From NCBI GenBank assembly GCA_945890485.1, contig CAMDCN010000005.1, forward strand, positions 310,001-374,000: a stretch of 64,000 bases of DNA. Reading direction: 5' to 3'. Below the pieces are notes generated by a model. The model searched no databases, was not told where the DNA came from, and saw only the letters and a program-made list of their open reading frames with translations. A program made the translations under genes and the position numbers. Positions 16,201 through 41,944 of the stretch are shown one piece after another. Every line of letters starts with the position of its first letter. The first letter of the stretch is position 1. The DNA comes from Candidatus Sulfopaludibacter sp. SbA3 (lineage in GTDB: Bacteria; Acidobacteriota; Terriglobia; Bryobacterales; Bryobacteraceae).

Positions 16201-17100
16201 TTAGGCTCGGGGATGATGCTCGTCCACCACGCGGCGCAGACGGCCGCGGGCGACGTGGGTATAAATTTGTGTCGTGCCAATGTCGGCGTGGCCGAGCATG
16301 GCTTGTACGCTGCGCAAGTCCGCGCCGCCTTCGAGCAGATGGGTGGCGAAGGAATGGCGCAGGACGTGAGGAGTGAGGTGGTGAAAAATACCCACTGTCT
16401 TGCCGTACTGCGCCAGTAACTTCCAAAACCCTTGCCGGGTCATACTGGTGCCGCGCGCAGTAACAAATAAAAATCGGCTCGCCCGGCCCTTGAGTAATGC
16501 CGGTCGTGTCGACGCCAGATAGGTTGCAATCGCGGCAATCGCCGATTGCCCCATGGGAATCAATCGTTGCTTATTCCCCTTACCGGTCACCCGGAGATAC
16601 CCCATCTCCAGGTTGACGTTGCTCAACTCCACCAGAATCAGCTCCGATACCCGCAAGCCGCACGCATAGAGCAACTGCAGCATCGCCCGGTCCCGTACGC
16701 CCGTCGGTGCGTCCATCGGCGGAGCCCCCAGCAACTTCTCCACCTCGGCCCCGTTCAGGAATTTCGGAATCGCCTGCAGCGACTTCGGCGCGCTCAGCAA
16801 CTCGGTGGGGTTGTCCTCCACCTTGCGCTCCCGCTGCAAATGCCGATAGAAGTTTCGTAAGGATGTCAAGTGGCGCGCCACCGTCCGAGCCGAACAACCG
16901 CTCTGATACAACGAGTCCAAATACTGTCCGATCTGTTCCGGCGACGTCGGTACCAATGCATCTGCGCCCCCGCAAAAACAGGAGAACCGATCGAGATCCC
17001 GACCGTACGATTCCAGCGAATTGGCGGCTAGACCCTTCTCGATGCGACAAAAGTCGATAAAGTGCCGGATCTCCGCGGCGAGAGAACCCTCGCGGTACAT
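16201..17100 (-). CDS. xerD: Tyrosine recombinase XerD/XerC family
   Basis: A 299-residue recombinase with a SAM-like N-terminal domain (about 5-95) and a C-terminal catalytic domain. All catalytic residues are present: Arg150, Lys174, His245-x-x-Arg248, His271 and the nucleophile Tyr280. Length and the LRHSFATHLLEGGADLRSVQAMLGH-type region match chromosome-dimer-resolving XerC/XerD rather than phage integrases, so a housekeeping role is likely. The XerC/XerD distinction is uncertain. It starts the xerD-cca unit. Confidence 0.9.
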   Translation of the reverse strand: MYREGSLAAEIRHFIDFCRIEKGLAANSLESYGRDLDRFSCFCGGADALVPTSPEQIGQYLDSLYQSGCSARTVARHLTSLRNFYRHLQRERKVEDNPTELLSAPKSLQAIPKFLNGAEVEKLLGAPPMDAPTGVRDRAMLQLLYACGLRVSELILVELSNVNLEMGYLRVTGKGNKQRLIPMGQSAIAAIATYLASTRPALLKGRASRFLFVTARGTSMTRQGFWKLLAQYGKTVGIFHHLTPHVLRHSFATHLLEGGADLRSVQAMLGHADIGTTQIYTHVARGRLRRVVDEHHPRA

Positions 17101-17107
17101 TGCCCTA

Positions 17108-17135
17108 ATGATACAATATGGAGCAAAAATGTGGA
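17108..17135 (-). promoter_or_regulatory. Candidate sigma70-type promoter for xerD-cca
   Basis: On the minus strand, TATCAT (17113-17108) is a 5/6 match to a -10 box. A TCCACA -35-like hexamer (17135-17130) sits 16 bases upstream. The -10 is very close to the xerD ATG, so a very short leader is implied. A TACAAT on the plus strand (17112-17117) overlaps it and may serve the divergent gene. Pattern evidence only. Confidence 0.3.
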
Positions 17136-17180
17136 ACTTTTTGGGCCAAAATCAGGCGTTTCTAGGGGGATGGGCACGTT

Positions 17181-17660
17181 TTGGCGAGTTCCGCAAGTAA
17201 AAAGGTTCGCGTTTTACGGTTCGATCGGGAACTCTTGCACGGTTTTGTGCAGTCTCCCGGCTTCCAAACCGCGTCTGGAATCGAGTTTCTCTCGCAAGAC
17301 GGAAACTTGGCTGTTATCCCGTACCCCGACGTAAAAGCCATCTGCTTCGTCCAGGATTTCGACGACCCGCTCCCTCGTCTCGACGGCGCCCAATTCGTCA
17401 GCCGCCCCAAAAAAGCCGGGCTCTGGATCCGCATGCGCTTCCGCGACGGCATCTTCATGGACGGCCTGCTCGGCAACAGCCTCCTCCAGCTCGATCCCCA
17501 TGGCTATACCGTCACCCCGCCGGACCAGGGCGTCAACCCCCAGCGTGTCTTCGTCCCCCGCGCCGCCCTCATAGACATCCAGGTGCTCGCCGTGGTAGGC
17601 AGCGGCCTCAAGGCGCCGAAGAAAACGACGGTCCCCGAAGCCCAAGCCAAACTTTTCTAG
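17181..17660 (+). CDS. Conserved protein of unknown function
   Basis: A 159-residue soluble protein with a TTG start (17181). The first half has alternating strands (VRVLRFDRELLHGFVQSPGF and GNLAVIPYPDVKAICFVQDFDDP), suggesting a beta-barrel fold reminiscent of PilZ-like or Sm-like domains. I cannot name a family. Its TAG stop shares CTAG with the convergent LolA-like gene. Confidence 0.65.
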   Translation: MASSASKKVRVLRFDRELLHGFVQSPGFQTASGIEFLSQDGNLAVIPYPDVKAICFVQDFDDPLPRLDGAQFVSRPKKAGLWIRMRFRDGIFMDGLLGNSLLQLDPHGYTVTPPDQGVNPQRVFVPRAALIDIQVLAVVGSGLKAPKKTTVPEAQAKLF

Positions 17661-18442
17661 ATCGCCTTCAACCGCGGCAGATCCGGCGGCAGTTCAAACA
17701 GCTTCGGGTCCAGCTTGTCGTTGATCGTCACCTGCTCGGAGAAGATCTCGAACGCCTTTTCCCCGTCGCGGCTCCGCACAATGTTCCAAGGCCACATCGC
17801 CCCGCCGCCAACGTCCCGGTACTTGGCGAAGATACTAATCTCCTCATGCCGGTAACGCATCGCGTCGCGCCGGTAGAAGACCTGCCGCAAAGGCAACTTA
17901 GTCGTCCGGTGCAGATACACCGTGACTAACCGGTTCGCCGCATCCGTAATATCCAATATCTCCACCGGCTGATTCTCCAGCACGCCGGTTTCTTTATGCT
18001 CCACAATCAACCCCGGCTCGTTCCGCCGCTGCCGCAGAATGTAGAAGATGTTCCGCAGCGCCGTGTCCTGGTACCGCTCCCAGACATCCGGCAACAAAGG
18101 CCGCGCACCCCGGTTCGACACCTGGTACGCCGCCGTCTCCTCAAACAGGATGGCGTACTCTTCCTTGTCCTTCCCGTACGATTGCCGCTCCCGCACTGCC
18201 AGCTCCCCCGGCTTTGGCTCCGGTCCGTAGCGCGTGTAGATCCGCGCCCGCGTCAGCCCGGAAAGCCGCTCCCGGTAGAACGAGTACAACCGGCCAGCCT
18301 CAGTCCGGTCGTTCATCGCCAGAAACGCTGGCCCGCCCAAGGCGGCCAGCGCATCAGCGAGTAGTTGCTTGCCAACTGTTTGGCGATCCGCCAACAGCAA
18401 GGCCGGCGCGGCGAAAGAGAGAAGAGCAGTCCGTCGGGTCAC
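17657..18442 (-). CDS. LolA-like fold exported protein
   Basis: A 261-residue protein with signal peptide MTRRTALLSFAAPALLLA. The sequence after it (ADALAALGGPAFLAMND...) resembles the start of the C-terminal domain of the neighbouring M16 protein (ARMQQAMGGADKLAAIKD). The end, IFSEQVTINDKLDPKLFELPPDL, has the closing motif typical of LolA/LppX-like outer-membrane lipoprotein-sorting folds. The start overlaps the M16 gene stop as ATGA. It may bind lipids or hydrophobic peptides in the periplasm. The fold assignment is by motif and not certain. Confidence 0.7.
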   Translation of the reverse strand: MTRRTALLSFAAPALLLADRQTVGKQLLADALAALGGPAFLAMNDRTEAGRLYSFYRERLSGLTRARIYTRYGPEPKPGELAVRERQSYGKDKEEYAILFEETAAYQVSNRGARPLLPDVWERYQDTALRNIFYILRQRRNEPGLIVEHKETGVLENQPVEILDITDAANRLVTVYLHRTTKLPLRQVFYRRDAMRYRHEEISIFAKYRDVGGGAMWPWNIVRSRDGEKAFEIFSEQVTINDKLDPKLFELPPDLPRLKAI

Positions 18443-20511
18443 TTTTTCATGATCTCTTCTAGTGAGACGCCCGTGTTGGTGGTAATGGTTTCGCTGATGG
18501 TCGTTCCCGCCGGTTTTCCGCCCTGCAGGATCACCGTCTTGTGCGCGAACTTCACCCCGTTCACGTCCTTCCAGTCGCTGAACTGCCGCTCCACTTCCAT
18601 CTTGCCCTGCGGCCCCATCGCCTCGACGATCAGCTTCGCCGGCAGCCCCGTCGCCGGATCCATCTCCAACTTCGCCGCTTTTCCGCCACCATCGGTAATC
18701 TCAATCCGGTTATCGCCCACCGCGTTCACCGTCCGCCCGGCAATCTTGTCGCTCTGCAGCAGCGTCACCAGCATCGCGAACAGCTCATCGCCCACCTGCT
18801 TCAACACCGGAGCCGGCATCGGCTGCGGACCCGGAGCGCCCGGCGCCACCAGGAAGCCGCTCTTGCCGTCGAACGCCGCGATCACTTTCCCAAACGGAAG
18901 CTCCTGCTCCTGCCGAACCTTATCCGGCAGCAACAGTTGCACCTTCTGGTTCACCTTCATCGGCCCCAGCTCCGCCTTGTTCGACATCACGACGTCTTTA
19001 ATCGCCGCCAGCTTATCCGCTCCGCCCATCGCCTGCTGCATCCGCGCCAGCAGTGCCTTGCCTTTCGCCAGCGACGCCGGATCCGCCGCCGAAACTTCCT
19101 TCTTCGGCTCCTTCACCTTCAGCTCCAACTGCGTAATCGGCAGCTTCAGTTCGGATAACGGTGTCTTCAACTGGTCCGTATTCGTAATTGCGACATAAAC
19201 GAACTTCTCCGGCTGAATATACTGCTTCGCCACCCGCAGAATGTCCTGCTTCGTCACCGCCGCCAGGGCCTTCTGATACGTGAACAGGAAGTCTTTCGGG
19301 TAGCCGTAGTACTCATACCGGAACAGCCGCGACAACGTCTTCGACGGCCGGTCGAAATTGAACACGAACGAGTTCACCACCTTCTCTTTTGCATCGTTCA
19401 ACTCCTGATCCGTCACCGGCTCCGTCCGGATCCGCTCAACCTCTTTCTGAATCGTCTGGAACGTCAACACCGTCGATTCCGCCTTCGTCGAACCCGATAT
19501 CCGGAACAGCCCCGGATTCAGATACCCCGCGCCCCATCCCGCACCCACGCTATAGGCCAGTCCCATCTCCGTCCGCACCTTCCGGAACAGCCGTGAATCG
19601 AAGCTGCCTCCCAGGATGTCGCTCAGCACTTCCAGCGCCGGGTAATCCTTATCGCTCAACAAACCGCCCAAATGGCCGATGCTGAACGACGTCTGGTTCA
19701 CCTCTTTCTTATCGCCGACGTAGATCCCCGGCTTCGCCACATGCGTCACCTTCGGGAACTCTGGCACCGGCTGCTGCTGCACGGTCCAGTTGGCGAAAAT
19801 CTGCTCCAGGCGCGCCCGCATGGCCGCCTTGTCGAAGTCGCCCTGAATCGCCAGCCGTACATTCGCCGGGAAGTAGTAGCGCTTGTGAAACGCGATCAAA
19901 TCCTCGCGCTGAATCCGGTCCAGCGTCTCGTATTCAATGCTCCGCCCAAACGGCGTGTCTTTCCCGTACACCGTATCCGAAAACTCGGCGTTGTTCACTT
20001 CGCCCGCATCGTCATACCGCCGCCCAATCGCCGACCGGTACTGCATCTTCAACAGGTCAATCTTGTTCTGCCGAAACTCGGGCCCCGTCAGCACGTCATG
20101 GAACACGCCCAAAACTTCGTCCGTATTCTCCTTCAGGCAGTTGAACGAAACCGAAGCCAGCGTCTCGTCGATGCTCGATTCCACGCCCGCCGCAATCGCC
20201 TCCAACTGTTCATCCAGTTGGTCGCCGGTCTTCGCCTTCGTCCCGCCCGTCCGCATCGTGCCCGCGGCAATGATGTGCACCCCGGTCTTGTCGGCCGGCT
20301 CCAGCAGTGTCCCTGTCCGTACCAGCGCAATGCCATTGATCAACGGCAGGTTGTGGTTCTCCAGCAGAAACACCTTCATGCCGTTCGGCAGCGTGAAGGT
20401 CTCAATCTCCGGAATCTTCACTTCGCCCAGCTTCGGGTATTTCAACAGTTTGTGCGCCGGCTGCGAGAACGCGATGGCGGCAACCGCAAAGAGAGTCAGT
20501 AGTGTACGCAT
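18439..20511 (-). CDS. M16 family peptidase-like protein, zinc motif lost, fused to LolA-like C-terminal domain
   Basis: A 690-residue protein with signal peptide MRTLLTLFAVAAIAFS. The first about 460 residues are two M16 half-domains. Where an active enzyme has HxxEH, this one reads AAGTMRTGG, so it lacks the zinc ligands and should be the non-catalytic partner. The C-terminal part (about 485-690) starts ARMQQAMGGADKLAAIKD and is a LolA-like domain. It is probably a heterodimer with the active M16 encoded 3 bases upstream, as in bacterial processing-peptidase pairs. The lipid-carrier-like tail is the unusual element. Confidence 0.87.
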   Translation of the reverse strand: MRTLLTLFAVAAIAFSQPAHKLLKYPKLGEVKIPEIETFTLPNGMKVFLLENHNLPLINGIALVRTGTLLEPADKTGVHIIAAGTMRTGGTKAKTGDQLDEQLEAIAAGVESSIDETLASVSFNCLKENTDEVLGVFHDVLTGPEFRQNKIDLLKMQYRSAIGRRYDDAGEVNNAEFSDTVYGKDTPFGRSIEYETLDRIQREDLIAFHKRYYFPANVRLAIQGDFDKAAMRARLEQIFANWTVQQQPVPEFPKVTHVAKPGIYVGDKKEVNQTSFSIGHLGGLLSDKDYPALEVLSDILGGSFDSRLFRKVRTEMGLAYSVGAGWGAGYLNPGLFRISGSTKAESTVLTFQTIQKEVERIRTEPVTDQELNDAKEKVVNSFVFNFDRPSKTLSRLFRYEYYGYPKDFLFTYQKALAAVTKQDILRVAKQYIQPEKFVYVAITNTDQLKTPLSELKLPITQLELKVKEPKKEVSAADPASLAKGKALLARMQQAMGGADKLAAIKDVVMSNKAELGPMKVNQKVQLLLPDKVRQEQELPFGKVIAAFDGKSGFLVAPGAPGPQPMPAPVLKQVGDELFAMLVTLLQSDKIAGRTVNAVGDNRIEITDGGGKAAKLEMDPATGLPAKLIVEAMGPQGKMEVERQFSDWKDVNGVKFAHKTVILQGGKPAGTTISETITTNTGVSLEEIMKK

Positions 20512-20514
20512 GGA

Positions 20515-22008
20515 TTACTTGCCCTCCGGCTTCACTTGAATGCTATAAGCAACGGTCCGGTTCTTCTTCGTCAGGTACGTATTCAGCACCCGCTTCACGT
20601 CTGCAGAGGTGACTTTCTCCAACTCTTCCAACTCCGTGAACACTTTCTTCCAAGACCCCAACGCCACATGCGACTCCGCCATCTGCCGCGCCAGTCCGCT
20701 ATTGCTATCGAGCCCCGAGATAAACCCGGCCCGCAGCTTCGTCTTAACCCGCTTCACGGCCGCCTCATCAATCGGATCTTTCTTCATCTTCTCGATCAAC
20801 TCGTCCCAGGCTTTCTCCAAATCCTCCACAGTCTTGCCCGCATTGGGCACCATGAACACGATGAACAAATTCGGATACTTGCCGCTCGGGAAAGTCGCCC
20901 CGGTGTCGGCGCCCAGCGCCAGCTTCTTCTCTTCCACCAGTTCCCGGTTCAGCTTCCCGGTCCGCCCGCTCGACAAAATCCCATCGAGCACGGCAATCGC
21001 CGGGTCGTCCGGATGCGTCCCTTCCGGCCGGTGGTAGGCGATCGCGATAAACGGCTGCGCTTCGGTGTCCACCGTCACGCGCTTCTCGCCGTTCTGCGGC
21101 GGCTCCGTCGTATACAGACGCGGAGGCAGCGGCCCCGCCGGAATCGGCCCGTAATACTTCTCGGCCCATAGCTTGATCTGCGCCGGATTCACGTCGCCAA
21201 CAATCGAAATCGTCACGTTGGCGGGCACATAGTAGGTCTTGTGAAACTCCGCCGCGCCCTTCGCCCGCAAATTCTCAATATCGCTCGCCCAGCCGATGAA
21301 GTTCCGATACGGATGCGCCGTAAACGCGGTCGTCAGCAGCGCCTCAATCAGCTTGCCCTGCGCCGAAGACTCCACGCGCATCCGCCGCTCTTCCCGCACC
21401 ACGTCCCTTTCTTTATAGAACTCGCGGAACACCGGCTGCCGGAACCATTCCGACTGCAGCGCAAACCAAAGCTCCGTCCGGTTCGACGGCAGGCTGTAGA
21501 AATAGTTCGTCGTATCCAAACCCGTTGAAGCGTTGAATCCCACGCCGCCGTTCTTTTCAATCTCGCGCGTGAAGGCGTTCTGCTCCACGAACTTGTCGGC
21601 CTCTTCAATCGCCTTCTTCAGCCCGGCTTCCAAACGCTCAATCTGCGCCTTGTCCGCGCGCCGCTCTCTCCGCCGCTCCTCTTCGAGCTTGTCGTAGGCG
21701 ACCTCCACGGCCGCCAGCGCCTTCTGCTCCAGCGCGAAGTTCTTCGAGCCCAGCGACGCCGTACCCTTGCCGATCATGTGCTCGAACATATGCGCCGTCG
21801 ACGACGCATTCGCCGGGTCGTTCGCCGCCCCCGCGTTCACATGGGCATGAAACGCTACCGTCGGTGATTCGTGCCGCTCCATCACCAGGAAGTGCATGCC
21901 GTTCTTCAGCGTGAACTCCGTGACTCGTTTCTCGAAGTCAGCTAGACTTTGGGCGCACAGCAGCACGGGCGCCAGCAGGCCCAGGCAAGTAAGATTTCGA
22001 AAAGACAT
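20515..22008 (-). CDS. M16 family zinc metallopeptidase, catalytic subunit
   Basis: A 497-residue secreted protease with a hydrophobic leader ending near LLCAQS. The inverted zinc motif is intact: His73-M-F-Glu76-His77. A charged helical insert of about 50 residues (roughly 85-145, rich in Glu/Arg/Lys) follows before the fold resumes at NGGVGFNAST. It should form a clam-shell peptidase with the inactive partner. It sits 1 base downstream of a MacB-type permease and 3 bases upstream of the partner gene, in a five-gene operon. The substrate is unknown. Confidence 0.92.
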   Translation of the reverse strand: MSFRNLTCLGLLAPVLLCAQSLADFEKRVTEFTLKNGMHFLVMERHESPTVAFHAHVNAGAANDPANASSTAHMFEHMIGKGTASLGSKNFALEQKALAAVEVAYDKLEEERRRERRADKAQIERLEAGLKKAIEEADKFVEQNAFTREIEKNGGVGFNASTGLDTTNYFYSLPSNRTELWFALQSEWFRQPVFREFYKERDVVREERRMRVESSAQGKLIEALLTTAFTAHPYRNFIGWASDIENLRAKGAAEFHKTYYVPANVTISIVGDVNPAQIKLWAEKYYGPIPAGPLPPRLYTTEPPQNGEKRVTVDTEAQPFIAIAYHRPEGTHPDDPAIAVLDGILSSGRTGKLNRELVEEKKLALGADTGATFPSGKYPNLFIVFMVPNAGKTVEDLEKAWDELIEKMKKDPIDEAAVKRVKTKLRAGFISGLDSNSGLARQMAESHVALGSWKKVFTELEELEKVTSADVKRVLNTYLTKKNRTVAYSIQVKPEGK

Positions 22009-22009
22009 A

Positions 22010-23242
22010 CTATTCGTAGCGTAACGCGACTACCGGGTCCAAACGGGCCGCCTTACTGGCCGGCCAAATTCCGAAGAACAGTCCTACCCCAACCGATACT
22101 CCCAACCCCGCCATCACCGCCCACATCGGCACCGCCGTCGGCAGCGTCGGGAACACGAATCCCACGCCTTGCGAAATCAGCCAGCCCACGCCCATCCCCA
22201 CCAACCCTCCTAAGAAGGTCAGCACGACAGCTTCGGTCAAAAACTGCGTCACAATGTCGATCCGCCGCGCCCCCAACGCCTTTCGCGTGCCGATCTCCCG
22301 CGTCCGCTCCGTCACGCTGACCAGCATTATGTTCATCACCCCAATCCCGCCCACCAGCAGCCCAATCGAGCTCATCACCACCATCACCAGCGCCACCATC
22401 GAGATCACCCCGCGAAACTGATCGATCATCTGCTCCGCCGTCGAAATCGAGAAGCTATCCGTCTTGTCATAAGGGACCCGCCGCTCAATCCGCAGCACCG
22501 CCCGCACCTCGTCAATCGCCGCCGCCTGCCGCCCCTCCTGCGCCACCACAATCAACATGTGCTCCCGCGCATTTGGGAACATCTTCCGCATGCTGAAGTA
22601 CGGAAACAGCGCCCGCCTGTCTTCCTGCCCCGGCATCGACGCCGTCGGCCGCTTCATCACCCCGACTACTTCAAAGATATGGCCGTCAATCTCCACCGGC
22701 TTCCCCACCGGGTCCGCGTTCTGAAACCAGCTCTTGCCCAAGTCTTCGCCCAGCACCACCACCGGCAACCGCCGCAGATTCTCCGACTCCGAAAAGAACC
22801 GCCCATGGATCATCTCGACGCCGCTCTCCACATAGCTCGGATCCGTCCCGCCCAGGTTTAAATTGAACGCGTCAATGCCCTTGTACTTGCCCTTGTGAAT
22901 CATGTTCCAGGGCGCAAACAGCCAAGGGCTCACGTTCAGCACGCTCGGGCAGCGCTCATTAATCGCCACGGCATTCTCATAAGTCAACGGCTTCCGCAGC
23001 CGCTCCTCAAGCGATCGCCCGCCGAACCCGATCAACGAATCCCACTTCGTCACCACCAGGTTGTTCGTGCCGAAGCTCTTCAACTGATTTGTAATCGCCC
23101 CGTCCAGCCCCGCGATAATCGACCCCACGCCGATCACCGTGCTTGTCCCGATAATGACGCCCAGCACCGTTAGAAAAGCGCGCAGCTTGTGTCCACGCAG
23201 CGTGTCCAACGCGAGTTGTATGCCAAACAAGATTTGCCGCAT
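22010..23242 (-). CDS. MacB/FtsX-type ABC transporter permease
   Basis: A 410-residue permease with MacB topology. A first helix (LRAFLTVLGVIIGTSTVIGVGS) is followed by a large periplasmic domain (about 50-275) and three C-terminal helices. These include the ERTREIGTRKALGARRIDI cytoplasmic loop that contacts an ATPase. No ATP-binding gene is adjacent, so the ATPase must come from elsewhere. Such permeases act as mechanotransmitters for periplasmic substrates, not as classical pores. Confidence 0.9.
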   Translation of the reverse strand: MRQILFGIQLALDTLRGHKLRAFLTVLGVIIGTSTVIGVGSIIAGLDGAITNQLKSFGTNNLVVTKWDSLIGFGGRSLEERLRKPLTYENAVAINERCPSVLNVSPWLFAPWNMIHKGKYKGIDAFNLNLGGTDPSYVESGVEMIHGRFFSESENLRRLPVVVLGEDLGKSWFQNADPVGKPVEIDGHIFEVVGVMKRPTASMPGQEDRRALFPYFSMRKMFPNAREHMLIVVAQEGRQAAAIDEVRAVLRIERRVPYDKTDSFSISTAEQMIDQFRGVISMVALVMVVMSSIGLLVGGIGVMNIMLVSVTERTREIGTRKALGARRIDIVTQFLTEAVVLTFLGGLVGMGVGWLISQGVGFVFPTLPTAVPMWAVMAGLGVSVGVGLFFGIWPASKAARLDPVVALRYE

Positions 23243-23245
23243 CGC

Positions 23246-24493
23246 TTAGTGGTCCGCCCGCAACGCTTCAATCGGATCCAGCTTCGACGCCACGTTTGCC
23301 GGATAGATCCCGAAAAACAAACCCACCACCGCCGAAAGCCCCACCCCGATGAAAATCGCCGACCCCGGCACCGACATCGGCACCGAAGTCGTATTCCGCA
23401 CAATCACCGCCACGATCCACGCGATCATCACCCCGATAAATCCCCCTGTGCCCGACAACACGCTCGACTCCACCAGAAACTGGTTCAGAATGTCCTGCCG
23501 CCGCGCCCCAATCGACTTCCGGATCCCAATCTCGTGGGTTCGTTCCGTAACCACGGCCAGCATGATGTTCATCACCACCACCCCGCCCACCACCATGAAC
23601 ACGCTCACAATCGCCACCGCCGTCGCCGCAATCGCTCCCGTCATCTGGTCCCACGCCGCCATCAACGAATCAGATGAAAACAACCCGAAATTGTCCACCT
23701 CGCCCGGAGGCACATGCCGCCAGGCCCGCAGCAGCGACCGGACCTCGTCCTGCGCCTGTTCAAAATGGTCGCGGTCCATCGCCAGCGCCGCGTAGCCAAT
23801 CCCCATCCGGCTGCCGTGATGCTTGAAGTAGGTTTCCACCGGAATCACCACATACCGGTCCCGCGACTGGCCGAACACGCTGCCCTGCTCCTTCGCCACC
23901 CCCACCACGGTAAACGGACGCCCACCCACATCGATCGTCTTGCCAATCGGATCCACGGCCGGGAAGAACTTCTGCTTCACCTCATGGCCAATCACCGCCA
24001 CCTGCAGCCGCCGCGCATCGTCCGAATCGGTCAGGTACCGCCCCTGGGCAATCTGCGTATTCGTAATCACCCCAATATTGGCGCTCACCCCGCGCAGCTC
24101 CACCTCTTCCATTCGCTCGGTCAGAAAGTTCAGCGTCGTCTGCCGGTTCGTCTCCATGCCCACTTCCCGCAGCATCTTCGACTCGCGCTTCAAAAACGCG
24201 AACTCCTCCCGCGAAAGCTGCGGATTCTTCCGCTGCATCTCGAGAAACTTCTTCGGGTCCCACTGCCCAATCATCACCATCCGCCGCACCCGGAACCCGT
24301 CCACGCCCATATCCGCCACTTGGTTGGCGATATAGTCGTCCATCCCGCGGATCACGCTCATCACGGCAATCAGCGTTGTAGTCGCGAGGATAATCCCCAG
24401 CAGCGTCAGGAAACTGCGCAGTTTGCTCGCGCGCAGGGAGCCGAACGCTACGCGGGCGGCTTCGGCGAACGAGGCGTTGTTAGTCTTGGCCAT
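23246..24493 (-). CDS. MacB/FtsX-type ABC transporter permease
   Basis: A 415-residue permease, the first gene of the operon. Same topology as the next gene: LRSFLTLLGIILATTTLIAVMSVIRG helix, periplasmic domain, three C-terminal helices, and ERTHEIGIRKSIGARRQDI loop. The two permeases differ clearly, so they may form a heterodimer. They lie 3 bases apart. No ATPase or membrane-fusion protein is present in the operon. Confidence 0.9.
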   Translation of the reverse strand: MAKTNNASFAEAARVAFGSLRASKLRSFLTLLGIILATTTLIAVMSVIRGMDDYIANQVADMGVDGFRVRRMVMIGQWDPKKFLEMQRKNPQLSREEFAFLKRESKMLREVGMETNRQTTLNFLTERMEEVELRGVSANIGVITNTQIAQGRYLTDSDDARRLQVAVIGHEVKQKFFPAVDPIGKTIDVGGRPFTVVGVAKEQGSVFGQSRDRYVVIPVETYFKHHGSRMGIGYAALAMDRDHFEQAQDEVRSLLRAWRHVPPGEVDNFGLFSSDSLMAAWDQMTGAIAATAVAIVSVFMVVGGVVVMNIMLAVVTERTHEIGIRKSIGARRQDILNQFLVESSVLSGTGGFIGVMIAWIVAVIVRNTTSVPMSVPGSAIFIGVGLSAVVGLFFGIYPANVASKLDPIEALRADH

Positions 24494-24523: not shown

Positions 24524-25483
24524 CTATTTGTTCCCGTAACTTTCGAGCCAACCGAGCGCCGCCGTGTCCAGCCAGAACCGGGGCTTCCCCTTGGCCAAAA
24601 ACGCCACATGCCCCCCGTGTGCCGGCGCCACCAGTTCAATCTGCGGATTCGCCGCAATCGCCGGATGCGAGTAAATATCGAAAGGCACCAGCGGATCGTC
24701 CTGCGCCGTAATCAGCAGCGTCGGAGTCGTGATCTTGTCCAGATAGTTCTGCGCCGACTGCGTCGCGTAGTAGTTCGGTGCGTCGCCGAACCCAAAGAAA
24801 GGAGCGGTAATCAAATCGTCAAAGTCGAACACGGTCCGGATCTTGTCCCGCTCGGCCCGCTCCGCCAACGGCGTGAACACCGCCGGATGCAGCCGCGCCC
24901 GCTCGCGCAGCCGGTCTCGCATCCGGTTGATGAACCGGTTCTGATACAGAAAACATTGCGGCCGCGCCAGCGCCCGCACGCACGCATGTAAATCCAACGG
25001 CGTCGAAACGGCCACCGTCGCCCGCTGCGGGCCGCCCTCTCCCGTTAGCTTCAACGCCATGTTCCCGCCCAGCGAGTAACCCACCAGCAGAATCGGCCCC
25101 TCCGCCCGTGCCGAGATTTCGTCCAGAATGCTGCGCAGGTCGCTCGTCAGCCCCGCATGATACAGAGTCTGGCACCAGCTTTCCGTCCCCCCGCATCCCC
25201 GAATGTTCACCCGATGCACCGCGAAGCCGGCCTGCAACGCCGTGTAAGCCATGCTCAGCATGTACCCGCCTTCCGACGAGCCCTCCAATCCATGCACGAG
25301 AACGATCTCCCCGCGGCAGCGCCCAGTTGGCCTCTGCTCATGCACCAAAACAGATACCCCGGCCTCGGTCTCATAGCGGACCGCACGCACGGGGTATTGT
25401 TCTAATTCTTTGTACCGCGGCCAGAAATTGGACGCGATGGTCGCCAGATGGGGATTGCGGAAAAGCGGTTCGAACGGAGCCAA
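24524..25483 (-). CDS. YheT family alpha/beta hydrolase
   Basis: A 319-residue cytoplasmic hydrolase. It opens PLFRNPHLATIASNFWPR, the family's conserved start. VLVHGLEGSSEGGYM (62-76) gives the oxyanion region, the nucleophile is Ser137 in GYSLGG, and the C-terminal His lies in AHGGHVAF. Homologues hydrolyse medium-chain esters in vitro; the physiological substrate is unclear. It lies 30 bases upstream of the MacB operon on the same strand and may be co-transcribed. Confidence 0.9.
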   Translation of the reverse strand: MAPFEPLFRNPHLATIASNFWPRYKELEQYPVRAVRYETEAGVSVLVHEQRPTGRCRGEIVLVHGLEGSSEGGYMLSMAYTALQAGFAVHRVNIRGCGGTESWCQTLYHAGLTSDLRSILDEISARAEGPILLVGYSLGGNMALKLTGEGGPQRATVAVSTPLDLHACVRALARPQCFLYQNRFINRMRDRLRERARLHPAVFTPLAERAERDKIRTVFDFDDLITAPFFGFGDAPNYYATQSAQNYLDKITTPTLLITAQDDPLVPFDIYSHPAIAANPQIELVAPAHGGHVAFLAKGKPRFWLDTAALGWLESYGNK

Positions 25484-25505: not shown

Positions 25506-26246
25506 CTAATCCGTTGTCTCGCCCGAAGCCCGCTTGCTCAGCTCTTCGGTAAAGATGATGGCTTCCGCCAGATCTTTCATCGGTCGCCGCAACCGCCGGC
25601 TCTCGTTCCGAAGCTGCAAGTACGAATCCTCTTCCGTCAGTCCGTGGCGACGCTGCAGAATGCCCTTGGCGCGCTCGACCAACTTGCGCTCCTCCAGCTT
25701 CCGCTTCACTTCGACGGTCTCTTCTTTCAAGCGGGCGTTCTCTTCCGCCAACTTGTTCTTGAAGATCGCCCCGCCCATCTGCTCGCCAATAAAGGTCAAC
25801 AGTGAAACTTCTTCCGGAGCGTGCTCGTGACGTTCGCGGTGATGGACATTGATGACTCCAATCAGGTCGCCGCTCGAAACCAGCGGAACCGAAAGGAACG
25901 CATCATATGTGTCTTCAACCAGGGCCCGGAATCGTTTGAACCGCTTATCCTGCGCGGCGTTCGACGACAGGGCGACCACCGACTTGTGTTCGGCCACCCA
26001 TCCGGTAATGCCTTCACCCATCTTCAGGCGAAGGTTGCCCAGTTCGTGCGCGTGCGGTACTTGCGACGCACACAGAACAATTTCGCCGGCTTCCTTTTCG
26101 AAAAGGTACACCAGGCAGGCGTCGCAGTCAGTTACTTGGACTGTGAGTCCAACGATTTCTCCCAACATCTCATCAAGCGAAAGCTCGCTTGAAACGATAT
26201 TGCTCACCCGATGCAGGAGTGATACTTGAGGAGTAGGGATCTCCAT
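25506..26246 (-). CDS. GAF and ANTAR domain regulatory protein
   Basis: I use the ATG at 26246 (246 residues, MEIPTPQ); a TTG at 26327 would add 27 residues but overlap the divergent gene start. A GAF domain (about 12-165) contains CDACLVYLFE and FLSVPLVSSGDLIGVINVHH. A coiled coil (about 170-195) and a C-terminal ANTAR domain (VERAKGILQRRHGLTEEDSYL) follow. ANTAR domains bind paired RNA hairpins to stop termination. The GAF probably senses a small ligand and gates this. No histidine kinase is adjacent. Confidence 0.9.
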   Translation of the reverse strand: MEIPTPQVSLLHRVSNIVSSELSLDEMLGEIVGLTVQVTDCDACLVYLFEKEAGEIVLCASQVPHAHELGNLRLKMGEGITGWVAEHKSVVALSSNAAQDKRFKRFRALVEDTYDAFLSVPLVSSGDLIGVINVHHRERHEHAPEEVSLLTFIGEQMGGAIFKNKLAEENARLKEETVEVKRKLEERKLVERAKGILQRRHGLTEEDSYLQLRNESRRLRRPMKDLAEAIIFTEELSKRASGETTD

Positions 26247-26318
26247 GCTTATGCTTGCCACGTTCTCAGCGTAAGGGTCACGATCAGACTGGTCCAATCG
26301 AAAAACTTTATTACCCTT

Positions 26319-27962
26319 ATGCTCCAAACTTCCTTAAGAGTTATTTTGCTCGTGGCGACTGGGGCACAAATGGTCGATGCCGCTCAGCCTGCCGAGGGTG
26401 CAAAATTCTCGTTCGTCCGTCTGCGTACTGAAACGCTTGAGGTTATCTCCGACGCCGGCGAACCCGCCGCCCGCGTGGCTCTCGCCCGCATGCAGCAGAT
26501 GGAGCGTCTCCTCGGCCGCCGCCAGTCACAAATACGGGCGTATTTGTTTCGGGACGACCGCTGGTTTCGCGACCTCCGTCCCGTCCCCACCGCCCGTGGC
26601 TTCTTCCAATCGGGACCCGAGCGTGATTTCCTCGCCGTCATGGCCGGCGCCGACCACCTCCGCGCCCTCTCCCACGAGTTCGTCCACGCCTCCCTCGAAC
26701 ACTCCACCGCCCGCCGCCCCCTCTGGCTCGAAGAAGGAGTCGCCGAGTTCTATTCCACCGTGACCCCCGAAAAAGACCGCTGGCTCATCGGCCGTCCGGT
26801 CGACGACCATGTCCGCGTCCTTCGCCGCGTCGACTGGCTCACCGCCCGCCAACTCTTCGGCGTCGCCAAAGACTCCTCTGTCTACGACGAAGCCAACCGC
26901 GCCGGCCTCTTCTACGCCCAAAGCTGGGCCGTCGTCCACCTGCTCTACACCCAACCCGGCTACCGCGAGCATATCCAGCAGTTCGCCGAGCTCCTCGACG
27001 AAGGCGTCCCCGTCGAAGAGGCCTGCCTGAGAGCCTTCAAACGCAGCGCCCCCCGAATTATTGACGATGCCCGGCAGCGGATACTGAGTGGCTCCCTCCC
27101 CGTCGCCGCCGTTGTCAGCGACCCCCTCGACGCCCCCCGCGTCCAGGTCGATACGGTCAACGAGGAGACCGTCGCCGAACTCGCCCTCGCCTGCGGCAAA
27201 ACTGCTCTGGCCACCCGGCTCTACGAACGCCAGCAGCGCCCCACCCCGCTCGGATTTCTCGCTCTCGCCCGAGGCGACAACACAGCAGCATTGAAATATT
27301 TTAATCAAGCCATCGCCGACAGCTCCCCCGACTCCACCCCCTACTTCGAAGCCGCCATGCTCCTCCGCGACTCGAAGCAGCCCTTCGAACCCCTCCTCCG
27401 CCAAGCCGTCGAGCGAAACCCCAACCACGCCGAAGCCTGGTTCCTCCTCGGCCTCGAAGCCGCCAAGCGCGAACAGTTCGAAGAAGCCATCGAGGCCTAT
27501 CAAAAGGCCACCACCATCCTCCCCCGCCAAGCCAACTTCTGGCACGCCATGGCCATGGCCCTCCATCGAACCGGCCGTCGCGACGAGGCCGCCCGCGTCG
27601 CCCAAAAATGCCGCATGGCCGCCGTCACCGATGCCGAACGCGAAATGGCCGCCGCCCTCAATGGCTTCGTTTCGTCAAAAACCACCTCCGCCCCCGCCCG
27701 CCAACCCGCCGTCGTCATCCCCGACTCCTGGCAGGGCCTCCAAGGCGACGCCGTTAGCGACGGAGTGCTCGAAGAACTCGTCTGCGGCGAACCGGCCGTC
27801 ATGCGGGTCAAAGGCGTCGGTGAACTCCGCATCCTCCGCCCCCGAGAAATCCGGATCACCGGCGGATCGCGCGAACTCGCCTGCGGCGCGTCGGATCGCA
27901 AGGTCCGCGTCGGCTACATCCAAGCCACCCGCGAACTCGTCTCGGTCGAATTCGTCCCATAG
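26319..27962 (+). CDS. Peptidase MA-like gluzincin with TPR repeats
   Basis: The best start is the ATG at 26319 (547 residues, MLQTSLRVIL, signal peptide). The frame extends upstream, but the added part is hydrophilic and overlaps the divergent gene. The gluzincin motif is His119-Glu120-F-V-His123, with Glu in WLEEGVAEF (136-144) as third zinc ligand. TPR-like repeats follow (about 305-460, including NHAEAWFLLGLEAAKREQFEEAI). A C-terminal beta-rich domain is of unknown type. Likely an exported or membrane-attached protease with a protein-binding superhelix; no substrate is apparent. Confidence 0.85.
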   Translation: MLQTSLRVILLVATGAQMVDAAQPAEGAKFSFVRLRTETLEVISDAGEPAARVALARMQQMERLLGRRQSQIRAYLFRDDRWFRDLRPVPTARGFFQSGPERDFLAVMAGADHLRALSHEFVHASLEHSTARRPLWLEEGVAEFYSTVTPEKDRWLIGRPVDDHVRVLRRVDWLTARQLFGVAKDSSVYDEANRAGLFYAQSWAVVHLLYTQPGYREHIQQFAELLDEGVPVEEACLRAFKRSAPRIIDDARQRILSGSLPVAAVVSDPLDAPRVQVDTVNEETVAELALACGKTALATRLYERQQRPTPLGFLALARGDNTAALKYFNQAIADSSPDSTPYFEAAMLLRDSKQPFEPLLRQAVERNPNHAEAWFLLGLEAAKREQFEEAIEAYQKATTILPRQANFWHAMAMALHRTGRRDEAARVAQKCRMAAVTDAEREMAAALNGFVSSKTTSAPARQPAVVIPDSWQGLQGDAVSDGVLEELVCGEPAVMRVKGVGELRILRPREIRITGGSRELACGASDRKVRVGYIQATRELVSVEFVP

Positions 27963-41161: not shown

Positions 41162-41944
41162 ATGGATGTGATTGAGCCTCCTCCGTTCGTTGAAGCTCCG
41201 GCGGTTGCCGTCCGGGATCTCCGAAAGGTTTACGGAACGAAGGCGGCGGTGGATGGGCTGACGCTATCAGTGCCCCGTGGCTGCTTTTTCGGCTTCCTGG
41301 GACCCAACGGCGCGGGCAAAACTACCACCATAAAAATGCTGATGGGGCTGGCGACGCCAACCTCCGGCGACATCGAAATGTTGGGGCTGCGAATGCCGGA
41401 AGACGCCCTGGCGATCAAGCGGCAGATCGGCCTTGTTCCCGATGACACGCTGCTGTTCGATCACCTGACGGGTCCTGAGTTCCTTGAATTTATCGGCCGG
41501 CTCTACGGGCTGGATCCGGGCCTGTCGCGGGAACGGTCGCGGGAACTCCTGGCGCTGTTTGAAATGGACGGCCACGACCAGAAGCTGATCGGCGAGTACT
41601 CCAAAGGCATGCGCAAGCGCGTCGCGATGGCGGCTGCCCTCATCCATTCCCCCCAGCTATTCCTCCTCGACGAACCCTTCGAAGGAGTGGACGCGGTCGG
41701 AGCCCGCCTGATGAAGGACATCCTGCTCGACCGAGTGCGTCGCGGGGCGACCATGTTTCTTACTTCTCACGTGCTCGAAGTGGTTGAACGGCTATGCGAT
41801 CGCGTCGCGATCATTCACGACGGCAAGCTGGTGATCGACGAACCCATGGCGCAGTTGCGCGCGGGCACCGAGACGCTCGAAGAGATTTTCGTGAGGGTTG
41901 TGGGAGGCGCGCCGCGGGCCGCCGACGCGCTGGAGTGGCTGTAG
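41162..41944 (+). CDS. ABC transporter ATP-binding protein
   Basis: A 260-residue ATPase. Walker A is GPNGAGKT (47-54), the signature loop is YSKGMRKRVAMAAAL (a non-canonical LSGGQ variant), and Walker B is LFLLDEPFEG. The H-loop lies in FLTSHVLEVVERLCD. Paired with the ABC-2-type permease that starts 2 bases later. Confidence 0.95.
   Translation: MDVIEPPPFVEAPAVAVRDLRKVYGTKAAVDGLTLSVPRGCFFGFLGPNGAGKTTTIKMLMGLATPTSGDIEMLGLRMPEDALAIKRQIGLVPDDTLLFDHLTGPEFLEFIGRLYGLDPGLSRERSRELLALFEMDGHDQKLIGEYSKGMRKRVAMAAALIHSPQLFLLDEPFEGVDAVGARLMKDILLDRVRRGATMFLTSHVLEVVERLCDRVAIIHDGKLVIDEPMAQLRAGTETLEEIFVRVVGGAPRAADALEWL

Follow-up and report, generated by a model that had tools for sequence, protein, structure and literature searches.

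A candidate LolA-tailed, two-chain M16B peptidase encoded beside the putative membrane half of a MacAB-type exporter in an Acidobacteriota genome

Introduction

In two-chain peptidases of the M16B type the motif HxxEH lies in one chain and an R/Y pair in the partner chain, a complementarity stated for other M16B pairs in the accessible part of PMC8960859. Both motifs are also described in the accessible part of PMC12731061, where AlbE/AlbF are said to serve subtilosin maturation and where the substrates listed for SPH2681/SPH2682 from Sphingomonas sp. A1 (PDB 3amj) are assorted peptides. Here we analyse a stretch of 64,000 nucleotides from Candidatus Sulfopaludibacter sp. SbA3 (Acidobacteriota; assembly GCA_945890485.1, contig CAMDCN010000005.1), which we call the window and which corresponds to positions 310001–374000 of contig C5 of the source genome (G000; 7.1 Mb in 35 contigs). 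It encodes an M16B pair whose non-catalytic subunit ends in a LolA-like domain, followed by a further LolA-like gene and preceded by two genes for MacB-type permeases.

The two-chain M16B principle is shared by the window pair with PA0371–PA0372 (4nnz), TTHA1264/1265 and AlbF/AlbE, and in particular with SPH2681/SPH2682, where HxxEH is likewise found in one subunit and R/Y in the partner. In contrast to SPH2681/SPH2682, the non-catalytic subunit of the window pair has the LolA-like tail, its active subunit is about 54 residues longer after HxxEH and an extra LolA-like gene follows. From the other three pairs it is set apart by description only, as the accessible parts of their descriptions do not mention a LolA-like tail.

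The fold of the LolA superfamily is an unclosed beta-barrel with a helical lid, and in known relatives the LolA-type half-barrel binds lipid or lipoprotein. The permeases resemble those of MacAB-type ATP-binding cassette (ABC) exporters in their MacB_PCD and FtsX domains. They differ from MacAB in that there are two permease genes, the ATPase is unfused and the genes for a membrane-fusion protein (MFP) and an ATPase are unlinked to them in this genome. With the ADOP family (TIGR03434) they share tandem MacB_PCD/FtsX repeats without an adjoining ATPase, but they are encoded by two genes and not as one chain, they score below the family cut-off and they fall outside the groups formed by the ADOP halves.

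We suggest that two separable units adjoin at this locus, the membrane half of an exporter and a two-chain M16B peptidase, and would give this reading a probability of about 0.55.

Results

The open reading frame (ORF) call reproduces the five minus-strand genes which an earlier sequence-only reading of the window had reported at 17657–24493, with junctions of 3, 1, 3 and −4 bases. These genes and the parts of their products discussed below are as follows.

23246..24493, minus strand: P1, MacB-type permease subunit (MacB_PCD and FtsX), first of a conserved pair; 415 aa; ORF call, Pfam and clade tree
22010..23242, minus strand: P2, second MacB-type permease subunit (MacB_PCD and FtsX); 410 aa; ORF call, Pfam and tree
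20515..22008, minus strand: M16act, predicted catalytic M16B subunit (Peptidase_M16 and M16_C); 497 aa; Pfam and motifs
21778..21792, minus strand: HMFEH, residues 73–77 of M16act, predicted zinc-binding motif; alignment
21574..21741, minus strand: about 54 extra residues of M16act, at about 90–145 (limits set by eye); HxxEH and the third zinc ligand are 129 residues apart here, against 75 in canonical pairs
18439..20511, minus strand: M16in, predicted non-catalytic M16B subunit with a C-terminal LolA-like domain; 690 aa; Pfam, motifs and hhalign
19552..19575, minus strand: R313...Y320, R/Y pair of M16in; alignment, 29 of 30 rows each
18442..19146, minus strand: C-terminal LolA-superfamily-like domain of M16in, residues 456–690; hhalign, and Foldseek on a poor model
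17657..18442, minus strand: LolA5, free-standing relative of the domain fused to M16in; 261 aa, GTG start; without a Pfam match

The same reading had taken the five genes as one transcript. The close spacing agrees with this and is its sole basis; a promoter and terminator scan gave no more signals than were found in shuffled sequences.

An active and an inactive M16 protein, with His73-x-x-Glu76-His77 in the former, had also been proposed, and the alignments and solved structures bear this out. In M16act, E76 and H77 are found in 50 of 51 aligned rows and H73 in 42 (8 rows have a gap there); candidates for the third glutamate follow at E206 (48/51) and E207 (50/51). The places of the R/Y pair are occupied in this subunit by Val in 49 and Leu in 36 of the 51 rows. 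In M16in the situation is reversed: the stretch that matches HMFEH reads HIIAA, the Glu position being Ala or Thr in 25 of 30 rows and the second His Ala or Gly in 26, with the first His kept in 9. Rows of M16act below 190 bits or 380 aa and of M16in below 220 bits or 500 aa were left out of these alignments, and some rows here and in the spacing set below are the same gene fetched twice. The closest solved relative of M16act is chain C of 3amj, the active subunit (E 5e-53), and that of M16in is the inactive chain of the same heterodimer (E 5e-39). Because HxxEH is kept and R/Y lost in M16act, with the reverse in M16in, and because the best matches in the Protein Data Bank are the matching subunits of 3amj, both proteins bear the sequence marks of a heterodimeric M16B zinc peptidase, in which they would act as one complex. 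The N-terminus of M16act looks like a signal peptide by eye.

The additional stretch in M16act appears charged and helix-like by eye. We compared the distance from HxxEH to the third Glu in 75 rows of M16act, thinned to 67 by removing 8 near-identical ones; the same set was used for the M16act tree. The distance is 128–131 residues in all 36 measurable of 48 rows with a tailed partner. Among untailed rows it is 75 in three, 143 in seven (families f2 and f3) and 129 in eight, seven of which come from genes with a contig-end cut or an in-frame stop within the match. Judged from these sequences, insertion and tail mostly co-occur, the exception being the f2/f3 group with its longer insertion and no tail.

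The claim that the C-terminal domain of M16in resembles the last gene of the row stands: profiles of the tail (22 sequences) and of LolA5 (29 sequences) align over 212 columns with an hhalign probability of 99.4 and an E-value of 4e-21, and searches with LolA5 directly retrieve M16in tails in three genomes (G002, G003 and G027; E 5e-7 to 7e-4). Both look LolA-like by predicted fold, from poor models. In AlphaFold models, which were of near relatives, the mean confidence score (pLDDT) is 48.6 for LolA5 (10 sequences) and 36.3 for M16in (8 sequences). The low-confidence LolA5 model has 4z48, 9tp6, 3bk5, 3buu and RseB as its top Foldseek matches, that is DUF1329, LolA3, LolA-like and RseB types, none of them with E below 0.001. 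For the equally low-confidence M16in model the LolA-like structure 3bk5 comes first (probability 1.00, E 5e-4), with M16 subunits also matched. By these matches the two proteins are like members of the LolA/LolB/RseB/DUF1329 superfamily; unlike LolA proper, neither LolA5 nor the fused domain matches PF03548. The Pfam family LolA_like is weakly matched by 3 of 29 LolA5 members (best 6e-4) and MucB_RseB by 2 of 22 tails (best 3e-4). Sequence searches of solved structures gave no match with the LolA5 profile and two with the fused-domain profile (E 0.12 and 0.14). The LolA-like nature that the sequence-only reading gave to the fused domain is supported by structure prediction, from a model of low confidence and without a PF03548 match. 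We consider the M16in tail and LolA5 likely to be LolA-superfamily members by fold and not LolA proper; since both structure models are poor this assignment is provisional, and ideas on lipids and substrates that build on it are purely conjectural.

LolA5 was also considered as the LolA of this genome. This is ruled out, as the sole PF03548 match of the source genome is a true LolA encoded by a separate gene at C7:349776.

Some LolA5 leaders show by eye a twin-arginine pattern (TRRT, ITRRG, ISRRT), namely those of the window (17657–18442) and of loci L033, L061, L179, L181 and L190, and others look Sec-type. Export of LolA5 by the twin-arginine translocation (Tat) pathway is possible from these sequences.

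The tailed subunit is not confined to the close relatives of the source genome. Of 297 Acidobacteriota genomes 176 contain an M16in match at E 1e-60, and in at least 45 of the 297 (our own included), from many families, the match reaches residue 555 or beyond and so covers most or part of the tail; the remaining matches listed end at residues 440–501, before or at the tail start. The 20 best M16in loci are a biased sample, being the best-scoring ones: one is the window's own, one (G115) has no called genes, and in the other 18 M16act lies directly upstream in every case and the tail is present in 16. Among the open PMC full-text matches listed, no title or abstract start describes an M16–LolA-like fusion.

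In L297, L299 and L033 (G336, G180 and G031) the M16in match holds one in-frame stop and no tail was called, which may reflect an assembly error or a real loss.

For the closer comparison we used 61 genomes, our own included, which were searched with M16in, P1 and LolA5; neighbourhoods were read from six-frame ORFs and from the calls of a simple gene finder, and orthologue presence was assigned by hand. LolA5 is present in 56 of them, with one main copy each. Of the 32 genomes having both, 28 carry it no more than 0.8 kb from M16in (the exceptions are G027, G029, G034 and G057). Eighteen fetched stretches with a stand-alone LolA5 contained neither permease-unit nor M16 genes, apart from one weak match to a permease (41 bits) and one match to an ATPase (46 bits).

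These distributions bear on a plainer reading of the peptidase, in which the M16 pair is a general scavenger of periplasmic peptides, with LolA-like modules that serve folding or dimerisation and bind neither lipid nor peptide. The assorted substrates listed for SPH2681/SPH2682 would fit such a role, as does the existence of untailed M16 pairs in these genomes. Nevertheless, the tail has been kept in many families and LolA5 has been kept near M16in in most genomes with both, and we therefore regard the scavenger as a doubtful alternative, if one to be kept in mind.

The likeness to AlbE/AlbF, which the sequence-only reading had drawn, extends to the heterodimer principle. Among nine proteins scanned, the five of the row and four neighbours, there were no genes of the type found with ribosomally synthesized and post-translationally modified peptides (precursor, radical-SAM maturation), and no wider search for a precursor was made.

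Whether the permeases and the peptidase belong together was judged from the 31 genomes in which P1 and the M16in type are both present. In 8 of them, all from the same genus (G000, G006, G009, G010, G012, G013, G016 and G017), P2 and M16act abut. The two genes are near each other in two more, at a distance of about 0.4 kb in G003 and of about 3.5 kb in G004, where three genes intervene. The genes found beside P2 or ahead of M16act show the units to be apart in 19, among them G025 with 4.2 Mb between the units on one contig; in the remaining two (G005, G023) contig ends interrupt the locus. The outgroups G037, G039 and G057 also have separated units, and no P1/P2-type gene is present in five stretches of 10 kb that surround tailed M16 pairs of other families. 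Thus the homologues are found mostly outside the arrangement of the window, an outcome which the sequence-only reading had itself named as refuting, and a single five-gene system is supported in part.

The permeases have recurrent neighbours of their own, two of which are encoded directly upstream in the window:

24524..25483, minus strand: alpha/beta-hydrolase, recurrent upstream neighbour of P1–P2; Pfam and neighbourhood survey
25506..26327, minus strand: GAF-ANTAR protein, frequent upstream neighbour of the hydrolase–P1–P2 unit; Pfam and neighbourhood survey

The hydrolase gene ends 30 bases before P1 and the GAF-ANTAR gene 22 bases before the hydrolase. Among 38 P1 loci, some of the others being cut by contig ends, a hydrolase lies upstream within about 0.5 kb in 21 and a GAF-ANTAR gene precedes it in 15, other genera included. 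As these recurrent neighbours continue the row at such short distances, the five-gene row described earlier starts too late.

Several observations weigh against a separation of the two units. G031 belongs to another genus and lacks a P1 orthologue; here only 17 bases separate the hydrolase gene from M16act–M16in–LolA5, which follow it (L057, 6630–11339). In G034, again of another genus, LolA5 follows P2 after 119 bases; its M16 pair is encoded elsewhere and sits on another branch of the M16act tree. Both resemble a row of six genes (hydrolase, P1, P2, M16act, M16in, LolA5) minus a piece, so that either an older row was broken many times or the genes were repeatedly drawn together, and both would suggest some shared function. 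In addition, P1 and M16in co-occur over the 61 genomes (31 with both, 5 with P1 alone, 3 with M16in alone, 22 with neither; p 6e-9), weakly so within family f1 (28, 3, 3, 3; p 0.04), statistics which are confounded by ancestry and by incomplete genomes.

One could thus suppose one integrated system, perhaps an older six-gene row broken in most lineages, in which the permeases extract or export a peptide or lipoprotein, and the M16 and LolA proteins process it or act as its escort. Together with the partial rows and the co-occurrence, the near-zero gaps kept in eight genomes of the genus speak for it. On the other side stand the 19 of 31 genomes and the outgroups with separated units, the tailed pairs of other families without permease genes, and the recurrent permease neighbours, which are other genes. 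The integrated system is a possibility that we hold to be clearly less probable than two separable units; a link between them through a shared pathway is possible.

The sequence-only reading had stated that the permeases lack an ATPase and a fusion partner. This is correct at the locus, as no ATPase or membrane-fusion gene was found by Pfam among the scanned neighbours of the five genes, but an orthologous MFP–ATPase pair is present on contig C10. In G057 and G059, genomes of the same class, the genes for an HlyD-like fusion protein, a MacB-type ATPase, P1 and P2 stand in one row. In a tree of 78 permeases P1 and P2 form two old groups, and the P1 of the window falls into the same starred clade as those of G057 and G059 (100/97). 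Relatives of the MFP and ATPase of this row are encoded in the source genome at C10:228149–229549 (MFP, 52% identity) and C10:229638–230315 (ATPase, 76%; the next best ATPase has 50%), side by side between AccA-like and LysR genes. Because relatives carry the MFP–ATPase–P1–P2 row and a matching MFP–ATPase pair lies on C10, the reading that suits the permeases best is one half of a MacAB-type exporter whose genes are split. Judged by sequence they may not lack a motor, and the C10 pair is a candidate for it.

The MFP–ATPase pair was without a called P1/P2-type gene in 15 of 20 fetched stretches, 18 of them chosen for the MFP and two for the permeases. With cut-offs of E 1e-90 for P1 and 1e-80 for the MFP, 29 of the 297 genomes (families f1 and f8, the f8 matches being P1-like by score) pass both. 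In every one of the 29, the P1 and MFP matches listed either fall on separate contigs or have over 1.7 Mb between them. By coordinates, the two matches lie 1.3 and 0.8 kb apart in G128 and G180, which belong to other lineages.

A search for a co-occurring ATPase had been suggested with the sequence-only reading. The MFP of this type co-occurs strongly with P1 over the 61 genomes (32 with both, 4 with P1 alone, 8 with MFP alone, 17 with neither); within family f1 the association is absent (29, 2, 6, 0), and the overall co-occurrence may reflect ancestry alone. Other observations also weaken the assignment of this motor. An MFP without a P1 orthologue occurs in 8 of the 61 genomes, while four others (G003, G009, G037 and G060) have P1 but no intact MFP was found there; in G060, of the same class, P1–P2 has no MFP or ATPase match in 18.5 kb. 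Furthermore, the source genome has a second MacB-type permease pair at C3:272310–274801 (L276), with no MFP or ATPase match in the 17 kb fetched, and the C10 ATPase may serve this pair instead, or several pairs.

The ABC ATPase of the window (gene 41177–41854, plus strand; match 41195–41854), the only ATPase-type match in the window, was considered as a motor for P1–P2 and rejected, being distant in place and in sequence (35% to the MacB-type ATPase; 79 bits versus 378 for the C10 ATPase).

Both permeases match the MacB permease model NF007826 below its cut-off, and the LolCDE model TIGR02212 gives 38 and 28 bits against a cut-off of 362. The ADOP model spans P1–P2 over positions 55–803 with 287 bits against a cut-off of 622.3. 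A split ADOP was rejected on account of this score, of the better score of the MacB model and of the separate grouping of the ADOP halves (long branches, modest support). In the source genome 16 ADOP proteins exceed the family cut-off, and a further one, with an in-frame TAA, falls just short of it. The idea that the permease pair has a mechanical or signalling role and hydrolyses no ATP could draw on these 16 proteins, on the sub-threshold ADOP match and on the missing adjoining ATPase, but is very unlikely in view of the same-clade relatives in a row with ATPase and MFP, the presence of both relatives in the source genome and the modestly supported separation from the ADOP halves.

Discussion

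We suggest that the adjoining units work as follows. The first unit, often consisting of GAF-ANTAR, hydrolase, P1 and P2, would provide both membrane subunits for an ABC exporter of the MacAB type, whose ATPase and MFP would be supplied by a separate two-gene unit elsewhere, in this genome probably that on C10, with its ATPase driving P1–P2. The second unit, M16act, M16in and LolA5, would give rise to an exported, putatively periplasmic two-chain zinc peptidase of the clamshell type. M16act would hold the zinc site and the R/Y pair of M16in would complete the active site, so that short peptides could be cut in the clamshell chamber. The M16in tail and LolA5, if the latter works with the peptidase, might bind the hydrophobic or lipid part of lipid-bearing or amphipathic peptides and present them to the chamber. 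The exporter half would be a neighbour that may share a pathway with the peptidase.

A more far-reaching version may be worth stating, which we think distinctly improbable as a whole. It supposes an M16B type of the Acidobacteriota's own, combining a LolA-superfamily half-barrel in the non-catalytic half with an active half whose active site is flanked by a long insertion. Such a periplasmic device would take lipidated or amphipathic peptides from the membrane or from LolA5 as a carrier and cut them, and would thereby link proteolysis to the folds of lipoprotein carriers. In this clade it would also serve a MacAB-type exporter by feeding or cleaning it.

For the permeases it follows that an orphan pair of the Acidobacteriota need not lack a motor, as an unlinked MFP–ATPase pair related to one that adjoins these permeases in other genomes is a concrete candidate. 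As for the LolA-tailed M16B type, which occurs across many acidobacterial families, lipid-bearing peptides are possible substrates to which it points. The tempting reading as one operon, for which the abutting genes of eight genomes, the partial rows and the co-occurrence still speak, thus gives way to two claims that can be tested separately.

On the other side of the row a DUF6982 gene is convergent to LolA5 with a XerC-like gene beyond it (16201–17660 of the window), and both are found beside the M16 unit in ten of the loci of the genus that were compared.

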